Shown here in pieces: positions 22,483-27,204 of a stretch of DNA of 64,000 nucleotides. A program made the translations under genes and the position numbers. Numbering within the stretch: the first letter of the stretch is position 1; each line of letters starts with the position of its first letter. Under the pieces are notes generated by a model. That model was not told the origin of the DNA. It ran no database searches and worked only from the letters and a program-made list of their open reading frames with translations. The DNA is taken from positions 1 to 64,000 of the forward strand of contig NZ_LMAU01000003.1 of NCBI RefSeq assembly GCF_001441535.1, read 5' to 3'. This stretch comes from Tsuneonella troitsensis. GTDB taxonomy: Bacteria > Pseudomonadota > Alphaproteobacteria > Sphingomonadales > Sphingomonadaceae.

Positions 22483-22659
22483 CTATCCCGCCAGCCCGCC
22501 GGGCCGGGTGAAGGCGTAATAGATGACGTAGAACCAGCCGAAGAACCCCTGGACGATCGCCCACAGGATCGACTTGTGGAGCGACCACGATATGGCAACC
22601 GCGATCGCGCTTCCGAGGCCGATCCCGGCCTGAGCCGCATTGGTGGCCGGGCCGCTCAC
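22483..22659 (-). CDS. Small two-span membrane protein at end of psp operon
   Basis: A 58-residue frame starting at GTG, whose first four bases overlap the stop of the preceding gene (GTGA). It contains two hydrophobic stretches, AGIGLGSAIAVAISWSL and ILWAIVQGFFGWFYVIYYAF, joined by a short HKS linker, and ends TRPGGLAG. The tight coupling and clean composition argue for a real gene although it is very short. Unlike its five neighbours it has no coiled-coil tail. Family not recognised; a role in the stress operon is inferred from position. Confidence 0.65.
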   Translation of the reverse strand: MSGPATNAAQAGIGLGSAIAVAISWSLHKSILWAIVQGFFGWFYVIYYAFTRPGGLAG

Positions 22660-22919
22660 AGATCGACCCCGCTGGCGATGGCTTCCAGCTTGCGGATTCG
22701 CTCCTTCAGGTCCGAGATCTCGATCCGCGCGGCGCCCAGCGCACTGCCGGTTTCACGCTCGTTTCGCTGGGCGCCGTCATGGCGGGCGTCCGCGACGATG
22801 CGTTCCAGCTCGTGCTCCTTGAGCGTCAGCCAGCCCTGCCAGCCACGCAGCATTGCGAATGCGACGATGGCGATCGCGGTAAGCGAGGTCGCAGCAGTAA
22901 TGATCTGGTCGGTGATCAT
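22656..22919 (-). CDS. PspB-like small membrane coiled-coil protein (array member 5)
   Basis: An 87-residue protein with one N-terminal span (about residues 8-26), a hydrophilic helix and a terminal coiled coil ending SDLKERIRKLEAIASGVDL. The RIRKLEAIA segment corresponds to the RVxVLERIVTD motif of the neighbouring proteins, but the following GY...EALR part is missing, so this is the most diverged or shortened copy. The ATG at 22919 is 30 bases after the preceding gene. Probably an inner-membrane protein with a cytoplasmic helix, as in PspB. Confidence 0.72.
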   Translation of the reverse strand: MITDQIITAATSLTAIAIVAFAMLRGWQGWLTLKEHELERIVADARHDGAQRNERETGSALGAARIEISDLKERIRKLEAIASGVDL

Positions 22920-22949
22920 GACGTTGGTCTTCCCTTGAACCCGTGGCCG

Positions 22950-23240
22950 TTACGAATTTTCCGTGGTCCGAAGCGCCTCGATCTCGTCCGCCACGCGGCG
23001 CGTCTCGAGGGCAGATGCGGAGTTGCTGTCGGTCGCGATGCGTTCGAGCACCTTGATGCGTTCGCGAAGCTCGGCGATCTCGCGCTGCTCGGCTTCACGC
23101 TGTTCGGCCAGAAGGCGCTCGTCGGCATCCCTCGCGCCCTTCGCGCGCTCGGTCCGACCCAGCGTCTCGTAACGCTTCATGATGACCGCTGCACCCATCG
23201 TCACCAGGACGATGATCACGAGGGCGACCCACATGTTCAT
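22950..23240 (-). CDS. PspB-like small membrane coiled-coil protein (array member 4)
   Basis: A 96-residue protein: a membrane span at residues 3-21 (MWVALVIIVLVTMGAAVIM), then a charged helix with LRERIKVLERIATDSNS and EIEALRTTENS. These match the LERIVTD and IEALR motifs of its neighbours. Its ATG overlaps the stop of array member 3 by four bases. Cytoplasmic coiled-coil domain and topology are like PspB, but it is longer than the usual 70-75 residues. Function in the stress complex is inferred. Confidence 0.78.
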   Translation of the reverse strand: MNMWVALVIIVLVTMGAAVIMKRYETLGRTERAKGARDADERLLAEQREAEQREIAELRERIKVLERIATDSNSASALETRRVADEIEALRTTENS

Positions 23241-23575
23241 TGCACCTTCTCCTTGCCGTCACGCAGGCGTTCGATTTCGTGCGTGAGGCGATAACCGCCG
23301 TCGGTCACGATCCGCTCCACCGTTTCCAGCCGCTCGCGCATTGCGCCGAGTTCGGCCTTGAGCTGGGCGTTTTCCTGGGTGAGGAGATGGACCCGCGCCA
23401 TCGCTTCCTTGTCGGTGTGCGGCTTCAATGACTGGCCCCACATTCCTTCGAGCGGGTAACCGTTCTTGATCTTCAGCTTGGTGGTATGGACCGATGCCGC
23501 GATCCCTGCCGCGCCAAGCGCAATGCCGCCGGCGATCAGGAAGCCGAGGTATGGAATGAAGTCGGTGAATTCCAT
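23237..23575 (-). CDS. PspB-like small membrane coiled-coil protein (array member 3)
   Basis: A 112-residue protein with an N-terminal span (YLGFLIAGGIALGAAGIAAS, about residues 9-28), an amphipathic linker KIKNGYPLEGMWG, and a coiled coil ENAQLKAELGAMRERLETVE followed by RIVTDGGYRLTHEIERLRD. The motif block VERIVTDxGY...EIExLRD is shared with the other members. The ATG at 23575 forms a TGATG junction with the upstream gene, and an AAGGAG site lies eight bases ahead; a GTG one codon earlier is possible. Confidence 0.8.
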   Translation of the reverse strand: MEFTDFIPYLGFLIAGGIALGAAGIAASVHTTKLKIKNGYPLEGMWGQSLKPHTDKEAMARVHLLTQENAQLKAELGAMRERLETVERIVTDGGYRLTHEIERLRDGKEKVQ

Positions 23576-23910
23576 CACACGCGCTCCTTGCGAAGGGTGT
23601 CGATCGACACTCCGCTGGCTTGGCGGTCGTCGCGCAGGGCTTCGATCTGTTCGGCCACGCCGTAACCCTTGTCGGTGACGATCCTCTCAAGCACCGCGAC
23701 ACGATCGTGCACGGTCTTCAGCTCACCGCGCAGGGCGGCATTCTCGCGCTTAAGCTCGGCACTTGCCTTCGACTCGGTGGGTTCGGTCATTCCGCCCCAC
23801 TCGTTTTCGAGCGAGTAGCCGTGCTTCGCGCGGATCCAGTTGTTGATCAGCCAACCGCCCGTGCTCACGGCGATGATAGCAATGACGAAAGCGGGGCCGC
23901 CCCAGTCCAT
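23575..23910 (-). CDS. PspB-like small membrane coiled-coil protein (array member 2)
   Basis: A 111-residue protein: membrane span at about residues 5-24 (GPAFVIAIIAVSTGGWLINN), linker AKHGYSLENEWGG, coiled coil ENAALRGELKTVHDRVAVLE, then RIVTDKGYGVAEQIEALRDD and the tail SGVSIDTLRKERV. The linker resembles the NGYPLEGMWG of member 3 and the tail is almost identical to that of member 1, showing descent by tandem duplication. ATG at 23910 in a TGATG junction, with an in-frame GTG one codon earlier, exactly as in member 3. Confidence 0.82.
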   Translation of the reverse strand: MDWGGPAFVIAIIAVSTGGWLINNWIRAKHGYSLENEWGGMTEPTESKASAELKRENAALRGELKTVHDRVAVLERIVTDKGYGVAEQIEALRDDRQASGVSIDTLRKERV

Positions 23911-24221
23911 CACACGCGCTCCCGGCGAAGGGTTTCGATCGAGACGCCGCTATCCGATTCGTCGACACGCCTCTGGTCGCGCAGGGCCTCGATCTGGGTG
24001 GCGACGTCGTAGCCCTTGTCAGTCACGATGCGTTCCAGGACGCGGACACGGTCTTCCAGCGCGGTGATCTTGCTGGCGTACTGGGCTGCCTTTTCGGCGG
24101 TCGCATCGGCGGTGGTGTGGACCTGCATCTCGGCGATCTTCTGCTGGTGCTTGGTCCAGATCGCGACGATCGGGATCATCAGCGCAATGATCGGAATGAA
24201 GACTGCGATGGTGCCTTCCAT
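23910..24221 (-). CDS. PspB-like small membrane coiled-coil protein (array member 1)
   Basis: A 103-residue protein: N-terminal span (IAVFIPIIALMIPIVAIWTK), a helix AAQYASKITALEDRVRVLER, the shared motif RIVTDKGYDVATQIEALRDQ, and the tail DSGVSIETLRRERV. The span-then-coil layout and the short loop KHQQKIAEMQ recall PspB. It follows pspC by 24 bases. The identical tail in member 2 and the repeated gene-junction sequence point to a recent tandem duplication. Confidence 0.82.
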   Translation of the reverse strand: MEGTIAVFIPIIALMIPIVAIWTKHQQKIAEMQVHTTADATAEKAAQYASKITALEDRVRVLERIVTDKGYDVATQIEALRDQRRVDESDSGVSIETLRRERV

Positions 24222-24245
24222 TGGTATTCCTCCCCCTTCAGGTCC

Positions 24246-24623
24246 TCAGCGCAGTCGCTCGATTTCGGCGGACAGGCGCGGGTTGCTGGTCACGTAATAG
24301 GTTTCGACGTCCGCCAGGCGGCGGTCGATCTCGCGGAACTTGCCGCGGATTTCGCGCGCCGTGCGCTTCGGGCTCTGCCGCACGCGCTGCCAGTACTTGG
24401 TCTCTTCCTGGTCGACATAGAGGTGTGGCGGCTTCTTGTTCAGCAACAGGCCTGCGACGAAGTAGCCAGGAAGCAGGATCGGCGCGACGGTGATCAGCAG
24501 CAAGATGAATGCCAGGCGGACCCACATGACGTTGACGCCGGTGTAGTCCGCGATCCCGGAGCAGACGCCCAGCAGCTTGGCATTCTGCTTGTCGCGATAA
24601 AGCGTGGTGCGCGGGCTGTTCAC
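24246..24623 (-). CDS. pspC: Phage shock protein C
   Basis: A 125-residue PspC. The PspC domain is clear: LYRDKQNAKLLGVCSGIADYTGVNVMWVRLAFIL and a membrane span LLLITVAPILLPGYFVAGLLL. After the usual domain comes an extra helix, EIRGKFREIDRRLADVETYYVTSNPRLSAEIERLR, whose end mirrors the VERIVT...IEALR motif of the proteins downstream. Start is GTG overlapping the pspB stop (GTGA). PspC is an inner-membrane sensor/effector of envelope stress that acts with PspB on PspA. Confidence 0.9.
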   Translation of the reverse strand: MNSPRTTLYRDKQNAKLLGVCSGIADYTGVNVMWVRLAFILLLITVAPILLPGYFVAGLLLNKKPPHLYVDQEETKYWQRVRQSPKRTAREIRGKFREIDRRLADVETYYVTSNPRLSAEIERLR

Positions 24624-24934
24624 TTCAGGGCTCCCTTCTTCTCGGCTTTCTTTTCGGCCAGCAGGCGGTCGAATTCGCGCAGCGGCTCGTCGTCGATCTC
24701 ACGCTCGTGAGTCAGCCGGGCGGGCCTGAACGAGGGGTCGTCGCTGGCAACCAGTCGTTCGACGGTGTCCATCCGCTCGTCCAGCCGCTTGGCCAGGCTG
24801 TAGAGCTCTTCCAGCAACGTTTCGTCGTCGGTGGTGATGGTGGCGGCGGTCTTCCACCGCGTGATGTAGTGCAGGATGATCCACGGCAGTCCGATGAACA
24901 GCGTGACCATCACTATGACGACGTCGAAATCCAT
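24620..24934 (-). CDS. pspB: Phage shock protein B
   Basis: A 104-residue PspB, longer than the 74-residue E. coli protein because of a charged C-terminal extension (about 35 residues ending LLAEKKAEKKGALK). N-terminal span VVIVMVTLFIGLPWIILHYI and the following TTDDETLLEELYSLAKRLDERMDTVERLVASD are typical. The VERLV element is the counterpart of VLERIV in the array proteins. It lies six bases after pspA and overlaps pspC. Confidence 0.9.
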   Translation of the reverse strand: MDFDVVIVMVTLFIGLPWIILHYITRWKTAATITTDDETLLEELYSLAKRLDERMDTVERLVASDDPSFRPARLTHEREIDDEPLREFDRLLAEKKAEKKGALK

Positions 24935-24940
24935 TGCCCC

Positions 24941-25639
24941 TTACTCCTTGTCGCCGTTGCCGGCCTTGTCATCCATGCCGAGCGCGCGCTTCATTTCGGC
25001 GAGTTCGTCGTCGATCTGGTCCTTGCCCGCGAGCGCGGCGATCTCGTCGGCCAGCGTCGGCTTGCCGGTGCCGTCGGCGATCGACAGCGCGTCGGCGCGG
25101 CCTTCCGCGTAATCCACCCTCCGTTCGAGCTGGTCGAAGCGCGCCAGCGCCTCGTCCGTGCGTTCGTTGGTCATCAGGCTGCGCAGCTTGACGCGGTTCT
25201 CCGCGCTTTCGAGCCGCGCGGCGATCGCCGTCTGGCGGCTGCGCGCTTCGCGCAGGCGGACCTGCAGCTTCTCGATGTCCTGCTCGTAAGCGCGCAGCGC
25301 ATCGTCGAGCACGGCGATCTCCTGGCGAAGCTGCTCAGCCATGTCGGCCGCCTTCTTCTTTTCCACCAGCGCTGCGCGCGCCAGATCCTCGCGATCCTTG
25401 CTGAGCGCGAGCTGCGCCTTTTCGGACCAATCGGCCTGCAGACGTTCAAGCTTTACCGTGTGGCGGTGCATTTCCTTCTGGTCGGCGATCGTGCGCGCGG
25501 CGCTGGCGCGGACTTCGACCAGCGTTTCCTCCATCTCGAGGATGATCATGCGGATCATCTTCGTCGGGTCGTCCGCCTTGTCGAGCATTTCGTTGAAGTT
25601 GGCCGCGATGATATCCCGGGTGCGGCTGAAGATACCCAT
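24941..25639 (-). CDS. pspA: Phage shock protein A (PspA/Vipp1/IM30 family)
   Basis: A 232-residue PspA. It begins MGIFSRTRDIIAANFNEMLD, the amphipathic membrane-binding helix typical for the family, followed by long coiled-coil helices (EETLVEVRASAARTIADQ, DREDLARAALVEKK). PspA both binds damaged inner membrane as an ESCRT-III-like oligomer and inhibits PspF. A ribosome site GGAG precedes the ATG. The same frame is open without a stop for 81 more codons back to an ATG at 25882, so a longer form is possible; see the findings. Confidence 0.92.
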   Translation of the reverse strand: MGIFSRTRDIIAANFNEMLDKADDPTKMIRMIILEMEETLVEVRASAARTIADQKEMHRHTVKLERLQADWSEKAQLALSKDREDLARAALVEKKKAADMAEQLRQEIAVLDDALRAYEQDIEKLQVRLREARSRQTAIAARLESAENRVKLRSLMTNERTDEALARFDQLERRVDYAEGRADALSIADGTGKPTLADEIAALAGKDQIDDELAEMKRALGMDDKAGNGDKE

Positions 25640-25878
25640 GAAGGCGACTCCGTAATTGGCGATGTCCCGTTGTGCTTGCGATTGGTTGGGGGACTGGGTG
25701 GGGGTGGGGCTGCGGCGCAGGCGCTCGACTTCGGCGTCGAGGCGCGAACCATGCGTGAATTGCTGGTGGCGGGCCGGAGCATCGTCGGCGCGGGAGGACT
25801 GGGATCCGCGCAGGGGGGTTTCGTCGCGCTCCGGCCCTAAGGGGTCGCTACCAAGGCCATCGGATGATGTCGGCTTGT

Positions 25879-26031
25879 TCATGCCAGTTCCGTCGTCACG
25901 ATCAGGCGGTCGCCGGCATAGGCCGGGGTCGCCTGGATCTGCGCGCTCAGCGCGACGAACAGCGCCATTGCGGCAACGCTCGCCATGGCGGCATGGCCGA
26001 GGCGGGTTTGCAAGAAGCGGCGGTCGAACAT
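25879..26031 (-). CDS. Small exported or membrane protein, first gene of psp transcript
   Basis: A 50-residue frame beginning MFDRRFLQTRLGHAAMAS and containing one hydrophobic helix (AAMASVAAMALFVALSAQI) followed by QATPAYAGDRLIVTTELA, so either a signal-peptide-bearing peptide or a single-span protein. A GGGAGG ribosome site precedes the ATG at 26031. It lies directly downstream of the sigma-54 promoter and its stop overlaps the ATG at 25882 (ATGA) that opens the extended PspA frame. No family recognised. Confidence 0.6.
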   Translation of the reverse strand: MFDRRFLQTRLGHAAMASVAAMALFVALSAQIQATPAYAGDRLIVTTELA

Positions 26032-26063
26032 GGATACCTCCCGTTGGATTACGTTCACCAATC

Positions 26064-26080
26064 AGCAAGGCGCGTGCCAA
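26064..26080 (-). promoter_or_regulatory. Sigma-54 promoter of the psp operon
   Basis: Read on the minus strand the sequence is TTGGCACGCGCCTTGCT, a full match to the sigma-54 -24/-12 consensus TGGCAC-N5-TTGCW. It lies in the intergenic space between pspA-side genes and divergent pspF, 33 bases before the first start codon. PspF, the bacterial enhancer-binding protein encoded next door, would activate it. Confidence 0.92.
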
Positions 26081-26169
26081 TTGTGATTTACGGATGAGGA
26101 GCGCTTTTCGACGAACGACATGATGGTCCCCATTGCCGACTGTTGGGATTTTTCGCTATTGGTTGGGGC

Positions 26170-27204
26170 GTGGAACGGGAAAGCCAGTTCATCGGCCAAT
26201 CGGACGCCTTTCTGGACGCGGTCGACCGCGCGAGCCAGGCCGCGCCGATGGACCGTCCGGTGCTGGTGATCGGTGAGCGCGGAACGGGCAAGGAGCTTAT
26301 CGCCGAGCGTCTTCATCGCCTGTCGAACCGGTGGGAAGAACCGCTGGTCACGATGAACTGCGCCGCGCTCCCCGAAACACTGATCGAGGCGGAGCTGTTC
26401 GGGCACGAGGCCGGCGCCTTCACGGGGGCCACCCGCGCCCGTCCCGGCCGGTTCGAGGAAGCGGACAAGGGTACGCTGTTCCTCGACGAGCTCGCGACGC
26501 TTTCGATGCAGGCACAGGAGCGCTTGCTGCGCGCGGTCGAGTACGGCGAGGTCACGCGGATCGGATCGAACCGCCCGATGCGGGTCGACGTGCGGATCGT
26601 CGCCGCCACCAACGAGGACCTGCCGCGGCTGGCCGACGAAGGCCGCTTTCGTGCCGACCTGCTCGACCGCCTGAGCTTCGAGGTCATCACGCTGCCACCG
26701 CTCAGGGTGCGCGACGGAGACGTGACGGTGCTGGCCGAATTCTTCGGTCGTCGCATGGCCAGCGAGCTGAGGTGGGAGAAGTGGCCCGGTTTTGCCGATC
26801 ATGTTCGCGAACAGCTCCACAACTATCTGTGGCCGGGCAACGTGCGCGAACTGCGCAACGTGATCGAGCGCGCGGTCTATCGCTGGGGCGATGCCGAAAC
26901 GCCCATCGCTCACATCGTGTTCGATCCGTTCGACAGTCCATGGAAGCCGGCCTTCACCGCGGCGCCCAAGGATGCACAGAAGGGTCAGACCCAGTCACCC
27001 CCGCACCAGGCGGCGCCCGACTTTGATTCGATCGAAGACCTGCGCGCGGCGGTGGACTCGCACGAACGCGCGATCGTCGAAAGCGCGCTCGGCCGCCACC
27101 GCTGGAATCAGCGCCAGACCGCCAGAGCGCTCGGGCTGACATACGATCAGTTACGCCATTGCATTCGCAAGCATGGCCTGATGCAGATCGATGAAGGCGA
27201 TTAA
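26170..27204 (+). CDS. pspF: PspF sigma-54-dependent activator of the psp operon
   Basis: A 344-residue enhancer-binding protein lacking an N-terminal receiver domain, as PspF does. Walker A GERGTGKE at residues 35-42, the sigma-54 contact loop GAFTGA at 82-87, Walker B GTLFLDELATL and sensor R-finger region FRADLLDRLSF are all intact; the C-terminal Fis-type helix-turn-helix is NQRQTARALGLTYDQLRHCI. A GTG at 26170 is the likely start; the open frame begins at a TTG at 26143 with no ribosome site. Divergent from the psp operon. The linker before the DNA-binding domain is rich in Pro/Gln. Confidence 0.92.
   Translation: MERESQFIGQSDAFLDAVDRASQAAPMDRPVLVIGERGTGKELIAERLHRLSNRWEEPLVTMNCAALPETLIEAELFGHEAGAFTGATRARPGRFEEADKGTLFLDELATLSMQAQERLLRAVEYGEVTRIGSNRPMRVDVRIVAATNEDLPRLADEGRFRADLLDRLSFEVITLPPLRVRDGDVTVLAEFFGRRMASELRWEKWPGFADHVREQLHNYLWPGNVRELRNVIERAVYRWGDAETPIAHIVFDPFDSPWKPAFTAAPKDAQKGQTQSPPHQAAPDFDSIEDLRAAVDSHERAIVESALGRHRWNQRQTARALGLTYDQLRHCIRKHGLMQIDEGD

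Follow-up and report, generated by a model that had tools for sequence, protein, structure and literature searches.

An array of small membrane proteins with a putative PspC-type C-terminal helix module in the psp operon of Tsuneonella troitsensis and its relatives

We analyzed 64,000 nucleotides of Tsuneonella troitsensis (NCBI RefSeq assembly GCF_001441535.1, contig NZ_LMAU01000003.1, positions 1 to 64,000 of the forward strand; "the window" below), which carry a phage-shock (psp) operon extending on the minus strand from 26079 to 22483. A predicted sigma-54 site is followed by a leader gene (S0), pspA, pspB, pspC, an array of five genes for one-span proteins (M1 to M5), a sixth small gene (M6) and then sufE, identified by eye from the sequence. 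The pspA core (24941-25639, minus strand; TIGR02977, 275.8 bits for a cut-off of 242.95), pspB (24620-24934, minus strand; TIGR02976, 89.2 bits, cut-off 51.7) and pspC (24246-24623, minus strand; TIGR02978, 128.3 bits, cut-off 104) all score above their NCBIfam cut-offs, as does pspF, which encodes a divergent sigma-54 enhancer-binding activator on the plus strand (26143-27204; TIGR02974, 489.3 bits, cut-off 443.55). The best named match of PspA is to T. litorea, with 96% identity.

The array genes, all on the minus strand, are M1 (23910-24221, module at 23976-24059), M2 (23575-23913, module at 23629-23712), M3 (23237-23578, module at 23258-23341), M4 (22950-23240, module at 22968-23069) and M5 (22656-22919, with helix 1 of the module only, at 22668-22709). 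A codon-usage coding signal is present in all operon genes and is lowest in M6 (12.8). The five related proteins that a first-pass annotation had reported 3' of pspA-pspB-pspC are thus present and carry coding signal; its statement that nearly all genes overlap went too far, as a 4-base overlap is seen at five of the nine junctions from pspA to sufE and the remaining four are gaps of 6, 24, 30 and 26 bases.

The sigma-54 -24/-12 promoter TGGCACGCGCCTTGCT (26064-26079, minus strand) is the sole match in the window to the pattern TGGCACN5TTGCW (0.08 expected). Among all loci examined, some of which overlap each other, the pattern occurs in 89 of 112, and it occurs in its exact form in 62 of the 80 named loci, which are the operons of relatives. 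In the 57 loci for which both positions are available, it lies 300-599 bases 5' of the canonical pspA ATG. Thirteen of the 18 named loci without an exact site have a relaxed one near the same place, two (L074 and L091) have a relaxed site only elsewhere, and none was found, even relaxed, in L058, L095 and L111 (L058 begins too close to pspA). The genome also encodes rpoN (417 bits). With a predicted site, pspF and rpoN all present, the sequence does not contradict PspF dependence, whose absence the first-pass annotation would have counted as a refutation, and it supports the placing of the array behind a PspF/sigma-54 promoter.

The C-terminal module of M1 to M5

M1 to M5 each begin with a transmembrane anchor, continue through a positively charged juxtamembrane segment into a long helix, and finish with a PspC-type module. 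In M1 to M4, helix 1 of the module has the form R[VLI]xx[LV]ERI[VA]TD and helix 2 the form EIExLR; M5 has helix 1 only, in the looser form RIRKLEAIASG. A motif common to M1 to M4 had been noticed in the first-pass annotation and is present, although its beginning, given there as R-V-x-V-L-E, is only approximate (M3 reads RLETVERIVTD). We aligned 46 array members (4 from the window and 42 from named loci, chosen for diversity), in which R58 and E63 of M1 are invariant and I65, T67, D68, I77, L80 and R81 are at least 90% conserved. The module is the most conserved part of M1, with a mean identity of 0.85 compared with 0.49 in the span.

To assess specificity, a 35-column element model built from M1 to M4 (M5 excluded) was searched against the 2,069 predicted proteins of the 80 named loci, counting a match at E<=1. 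It matched all 414 array members (M1 153/153, M2 37/37, M3 76/76, M4 73/73 and M5 75/75), every one within the spans 3' of pspC; all 75 M5 homologues did so at E<=1e-3 though M5 was absent from the model. Matches were also obtained for 79/79 PspC (best E 5e-3, median 0.028), 67/79 PspB (median E 0.13) and 3/156 PspA predictions, and for no sufE or M6 product. Counted by position, only three matches fell among the 1,225 proteins that lie beyond the array spans and are neither PspB nor PspC, all three being PspA with E-values of 0.11-0.95; we preferred this count to a label-based one (0/1,231 "other" proteins), in which the labels came from models that themselves include the element.

Profiles of the groups were then compared with local hhalign, using 20 heptad-preserving column shuffles as a control. 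M1 to M4 match each other with probabilities of 98.4-99.9%, which none of the 20 shuffles reached, and M5 matches M1 at 93%, M4 at 94%, M3 at 51% and M2 at 12%. Together with the low rate of matches among other proteins, this takes the motif beyond generic coiled-coil likeness and supports M1 to M5 as a real paralogous array with a common C-terminal helix module. M6, which had already been set apart as a sixth protein, shows no similarity to any other group (all profile comparisons below 2% probability).

By profile comparison, the module is nearer to the C-terminus of PspC than to PspB. PspC matches M3, its closest member, at 94% (over columns 91-126), M4 at 84%, M2 at 63% and M1 at 56%, with 0/20 shuffles reaching each value, while PspB reaches 34% with M1, 1% with M4 and less than 7% with every other member. 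On the basis of these comparisons and their shuffle controls, the array carries a PspC-type C-terminal module on a PspB-like anchor. The C-terminal module of PspC lies at 24249-24326 and a helix-1-like element of PspB at 24728-24793. The element is thus recognizable in both proteins, as first suggested, PspB resembling it less than PspC does; the PspC helix, described there as an extra one, belongs to standard PspC, because the TIGR02978 match spans positions 2-121 of 121.

Curated families place the array members only partially. None of M1 to M5 reaches the TIGR02976 (PspB) cut-off of 51.7 bits, with 23.5 bits for M1 (E=4.9e-5), 18.4 for M4 (E=2e-3) and 14.6 for M3; in Pfam PF06667, M1 (13.1 bits) and M4 (11.8 bits) remain below the cut-off of 25.6. 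TIGR02978 matches M1 over model positions 53-121 (E=4.7e-4) and M3 over 72-121 (E=2.3e-3), and the PspC domain PF04024 matches none of M1 to M5. M2, M5 and M6 have no NCBIfam match at all. Because the window members score below family cut-offs, such genes are easily annotated as hypothetical proteins. PspC (TIGR02978/PF04024) thus resembles M1 to M4 in its C-terminal helix, turn and EIExLR helix and in its place in the psp operon, but has a PspC domain where M1 to M5 have one N-terminal span. PspB (TIGR02976/PF06667) shares with M1 to M5 an N-terminal span and a cytoplasmic helix, whereas M1 to M4 have a PspC-type helix 2 and the array lies 3' of pspC, in up to 9 copies, and not between pspA and pspC where the genuine pspB lies. 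Calling the array PspB-like, as the first-pass annotation did, therefore holds for the N-terminal span and the predicted cytoplasmic helical tail; it does not hold for the module, which is closer to PspC, or for the curated PspB cut-offs.

The tail of M1 to M5 is predicted to be cytoplasmic by hydropathy and the positive-inside rule, because lysine and arginine are in excess after the span in 411/414 members (M1 148/149, M2 37/37, M3 77/77, M4 75/76 and M5 74/75), as they are in 79/79 PspB; the bias is reversed in M6, with an excess after the span in only 1/39. An AlphaFold2 model of PspC has terminal helices at residues 85-113 and 115-124 (predicted local distance difference test, pLDDT, 73; predicted template modeling score, pTM, 0.33). 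This model and that of M1, discussed below, are monomers and carry no information on partners. Searched against the sequences of solved structures, the M1 alignment gave 68 weak matches at E<=1, the best being a potassium channel (E=0.039) followed, among the best 60 of the 68, chiefly by HA2 and CREB coiled coils; the same search with PspC gave no match.

Distribution of the array and the N-terminal tail of PspA

We counted M1-M5-type genes in 74 complete named operons, leaving out L104, in which no PspA was parsed, and five operons without sufE in the stretch. The array has two members in one operon, three in one, four in 12, five in 29, six in 22, seven in seven, eight in one and nine in one. 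A hand-picked set of 40 divergent loci from the same GTDB family, mostly one per genus (33 with sufE in the stretch and seven without it that were still counted), has none in one locus, one in two, two in six, three in six, four in 14, five in six and six in five. The best match lies in another operon for 412 of the 414 array members, so the copies predate the sampled species splits and are not homogenized. The ratio of nonsynonymous to synonymous substitution rates (dN/dS) of M1 to M6 against six relatives ranges from 0.08 to 0.78, the higher values including M4, and M2 compared with non-orthologous copies in L032, L033, L037 and L040.

Across the order, an array profile matches 230 of 247 genomes: 185/186 within the family and 45/61 outside it, the latter with one or two matches each, some of the weak second ones being PspB itself (as in L180, from genome G585). 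The single member ends a pspF-pspABC-short-pspC operon in L162 and L165. The gene predictor, trained on the window, performed poorly in the AT-richer loci L166, L167, L171 and L178. Across the class, 18/387 genomes match, of which six are of the organism's own or same family, two of one other family match strongly (E ~1e-14) and ten match weakly (3e-6 to 7e-4); among the weak matches at least one, in L157, is a second PspB.

Within the family, the array is lost together with pspA and pspC. Thirteen of 199 family genomes have no PspC match, ten of them at least 90% complete and at most 5% contaminated; a PspA match is found in 0/13, with a query that recovers its own gene, the only positive control, at 5.8e-139, and array matches are absent in 12/13. 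The exception (G082, with an array match and no PspC) is 66% complete and in 360 contigs.

Several relatives of the module were seen elsewhere. In a distant alphaproteobacterial family, which gave the two strong class matches, two tandem one-span module members lie outside psp (L155:3227-3709 and L156:3371-3856, minus strand), next to an RDD-family gene (L155) and a dut-like gene. Another alphaproteobacterial family has a pspA-pspB-short pspC-second pspB-second pspC operon, named by eye (L157:2954-4780, minus strand), apparently an independent expansion. The T. troitsensis genome itself encodes (contig C4:192272-192604; L154:4270-4605, minus strand) a soluble 111-aa protein with a CxxC-containing N-terminus and the same helix module at its end, its gene lying directly 3' of a lipid-transport operon of ABC/MlaD-like type. 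Of 20 relatives searched, one has a full-length match.

PspA itself is extended in these operons, a feature that the first-pass annotation had missed together with S0. The PspA frame is open 5' of the canonical ATG (25639) as far as position 25882, where an ATG overlaps the stop codon of S0, giving an in-frame N-terminal tail of 81 codons (25640-25882, minus strand). Within it, the predicted helix SRLDAEVERLRR (25712-25747, minus strand) is a near copy of the PspC C-terminal helix. The window tail reads SRLDAEVERLR, often followed in relatives by SPTPT, and the PspC C-terminus reads PRL[TNS]AEIERLR in 68/76 extracted ends. The pattern R[LIFV][DE]xE[VIL]Ex[LMV]R is present in the open upstream frame of 71 of the 73 named loci in which the PspA start was found, so that a separate open reading frame is a less likely explanation of the tail. 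A related pattern, R[LIFV]xxE[VI]ExLR, occurs in 75/79 PspC, 37/156 PspA predictions (many of which started short), 35/73 M4, 7/76 M3, 2/37 M2, 0/153 M1 and 0/1,231 label-free proteins. For the tail motif, which was picked after being seen, a PspC-derived position-specific scoring matrix gives a score of 17.2, reached by 0/20,000 shuffles and 0/5,010 real windows. Third codon positions differ most in all of eight tail comparisons, with dN/dS of 0.23-0.88.

PspA starts were located in 73 of the 80 named and 32 divergent loci, and with a wider pattern in 76 and 38; no start was found in L185 and L190, although the PspA of L185 was predicted long. The tail is present in 75/76 named loci as against 1/38 divergent ones (L181), a contrast suggesting that the tail arose later than the array. 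Arrays have a mean size of 5.33 with a tail (n=70) and 3.74 without (n=38), compared with no phylogenetic control. In the window, a GGAG resembling a ribosome-binding site lies within the tail, 8 bases 5' of the canonical PspA ATG (25648-25651, minus strand). A Shine-Dalgarno-like site at this place (GGAG, GAGG, AGGA, AAGG or GGAA) is found in 75/75 named loci with a tail and in 37/37 divergent loci without one. Two PspA forms, of 313 and 232 residues, are likely because this site is kept before the canonical start, and a short form (24941-25639) is probably made too.

Proposed role of the array

In Yersinia, the C-terminal domain of PspC binds PspA in the on state, according to passages of PMC5596341, and in E. 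coli the leucine-zipper region of PspC is required for PspA binding, according to passages of PMC3068692, which put that region in the periplasm in the standard topology. Because of this known binding, we regard the array members as candidate PspA docking sites. On balance we favor, with moderate confidence, the array as an expanded set of membrane-anchored phage-shock partners at which PspA would dock in addition to, or in place of, PspC; on present sequence comparisons, the members most likely serve as further modules at the membrane for PspA binding or partner switching. The members would hold or release PspA, and so PspF, and would place PspA at the membrane, differing anchors conferring differing sensitivities; M1 to M4 would be further docking sites of the PspC kind and M5 a relative with helix 1 only. 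Hetero-oligomerization of the members with PspA, as first proposed, is plausible.

The array and the PspA tail together suggest an enlarged switchboard sensing membrane damage. As PspC helix 2 has a copy in the tail, the long form of PspA could displace helix 2, or compete with it, in the modules of M1 to M4 and PspC. An extended form of the docking proposal, which we consider unlikely, is a helix exchange in which two PspA forms are made and the tail helix swaps into the PspC and array modules (up to nine per operon), so that PspA would be retained at many sites on the membrane and let go in a graded manner. If true, PspA, a membrane-repair protein of the ESCRT-III-like kind, would have come to mimic its own regulator at the molecular level.

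Several observations weigh against the docking proposal. One psp operon (L204) has no array members, and L198 and L217 have one each. The AlphaFold2 model of M1, of modest confidence (pLDDT 71, pTM 0.29), is essentially one helix (residues 3-90) followed by a short one at 95-101, and because helix 3-90 runs through, it shows no turn separating helix 1 from helix 2. Similarity between PspC and M5 is absent by profile comparison, the probability being 0.1%, with 18/20 shuffles as high. The PspB-PspC similarity is marginal, one of 20 shuffles being as high (two of 20 for PspB and M4); its support comes from a weak TIGR02978 match to the window PspB (E=0.023) and from PMC11237479, and these alignments do not show it. 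The tail helix is matched less well by a matrix built from M1 to M4, its score being reached by 19/20,000 shuffles and 17/5,010 real windows, and the array does not require a tail, which only one of 38 divergent loci has. In other Sphingomonadales families, finally, the single member is often away from psp, beside rpoD, flagellin or acetyltransferase genes (neighbors recognized by eye in the 16 of 20 loci viewed).

This last observation fits a different account, in which the members form a self-contained coiled-coil assembly, binding mainly each other to make a platform in the membrane with a separate envelope function and merely co-induced with PspA; the orphan soluble member beside the ABC/MlaD-like lipid-transport operon points the same way. 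Since the array is lost with pspA and pspC in the family and its module matches PspC, we judge this account improbable. A better candidate, though still a somewhat unlikely one, is that M1 to M5 are effectors and not sensors: as structural membrane anchors or scaffolds they would bring PspA polymers to the membrane, copy number would set the dosage, and they would have no part in regulating PspF. The putative PspA-facing module is common to all members and the span of M1 is far less conserved than its module, tight overlaps within the arrays of relatives (-1 or -4 at 268/374 junctions) fit near-equal expression, and copy number ranges from 2 to 9 in the 74 complete operons. Against it, the closest relative of 412 of the 414 members lies in a different operon, a pattern that fits distinct roles better than simple dosage. 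The motif could also reflect convergence of unrelated small helical membrane proteins, given that M1 to M5 all fall below family cut-offs and M2 and M5 lack any NCBIfam match. We give this very little credence: only three of 1,225 other proteins match the element model, PspA, itself a coiled-coil protein, matches in only 3/156 predictions, and the mutual probabilities of M1 to M4 (98-99.9%) are reached by no shuffle. Convergence is already disfavored on these comparisons for M1 to M5, and stays true for M6.

Part of the phenomenon is in print. PspB duplicates in psp operons, with AOL22920.1 as an example, and the idea that PspC may carry a divergent C-terminal PspB appear in passages of PMC11237479 (mSystems 2024), which in outline describe the same thing: extra PspB-like genes in pspFABC and a PspB-like end of PspC. 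The description takes up a single clause with one accession, and the main-text passages mention neither an array size nor the module, a survey across the clade, co-loss or a tail on PspA. AOL22920.1 is probably an Erythrobacter protein. In the survey PMC9239133, the terms "sphingo", "Erythrobacter" and "Novosphingobium" do not occur in the main text. Among the accessory genes of psp operons are also PspD, PspG and Toastrack partners (PMC11237479, PMC9239133). In a literature covered mostly at the level of abstracts, with few subscription papers, we found no description of the array, its PspC-type module or the PspA tail. The first-pass view of a multi-copy array as undescribed thus has to yield on PspB duplicates, while array size, the PspC-type module, co-loss and the PspA tail appear to be new within that coverage. 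In the sources consulted, mechanistic work on the switching of PspA between its regulatory and repair roles by PspB and PspC comes from enterobacteria, which have a single copy of each; a clade in which the module is multiplied several-fold, its copies kept distinct and a matching helix grafted onto PspA offers a natural dissection of switch residues and binding partners.

Accessory genes M6 and S0

M6 (22483-22659, minus strand) encodes a 58-aa membrane protein unrelated to M1 to M5 and overlaps M5. No family match above cut-off was found for it; it has 39 homologues in named operons, with dN/dS of 0.18-0.25 in those comparisons, five of six, that gave a match.

S0 (25879-26031, minus strand) is a 50-aa leader gene just 5' of pspA with coding signal, and its product has a single hydrophobic segment and an AxA-like end. 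The end of S0 and the beginning of the long PspA frame share 4 bases, and the codon-usage gene call preferred a longer GTG start at 26058. Homologues of S0 shorter than 75 aa are present in 63 of the 80 named loci.

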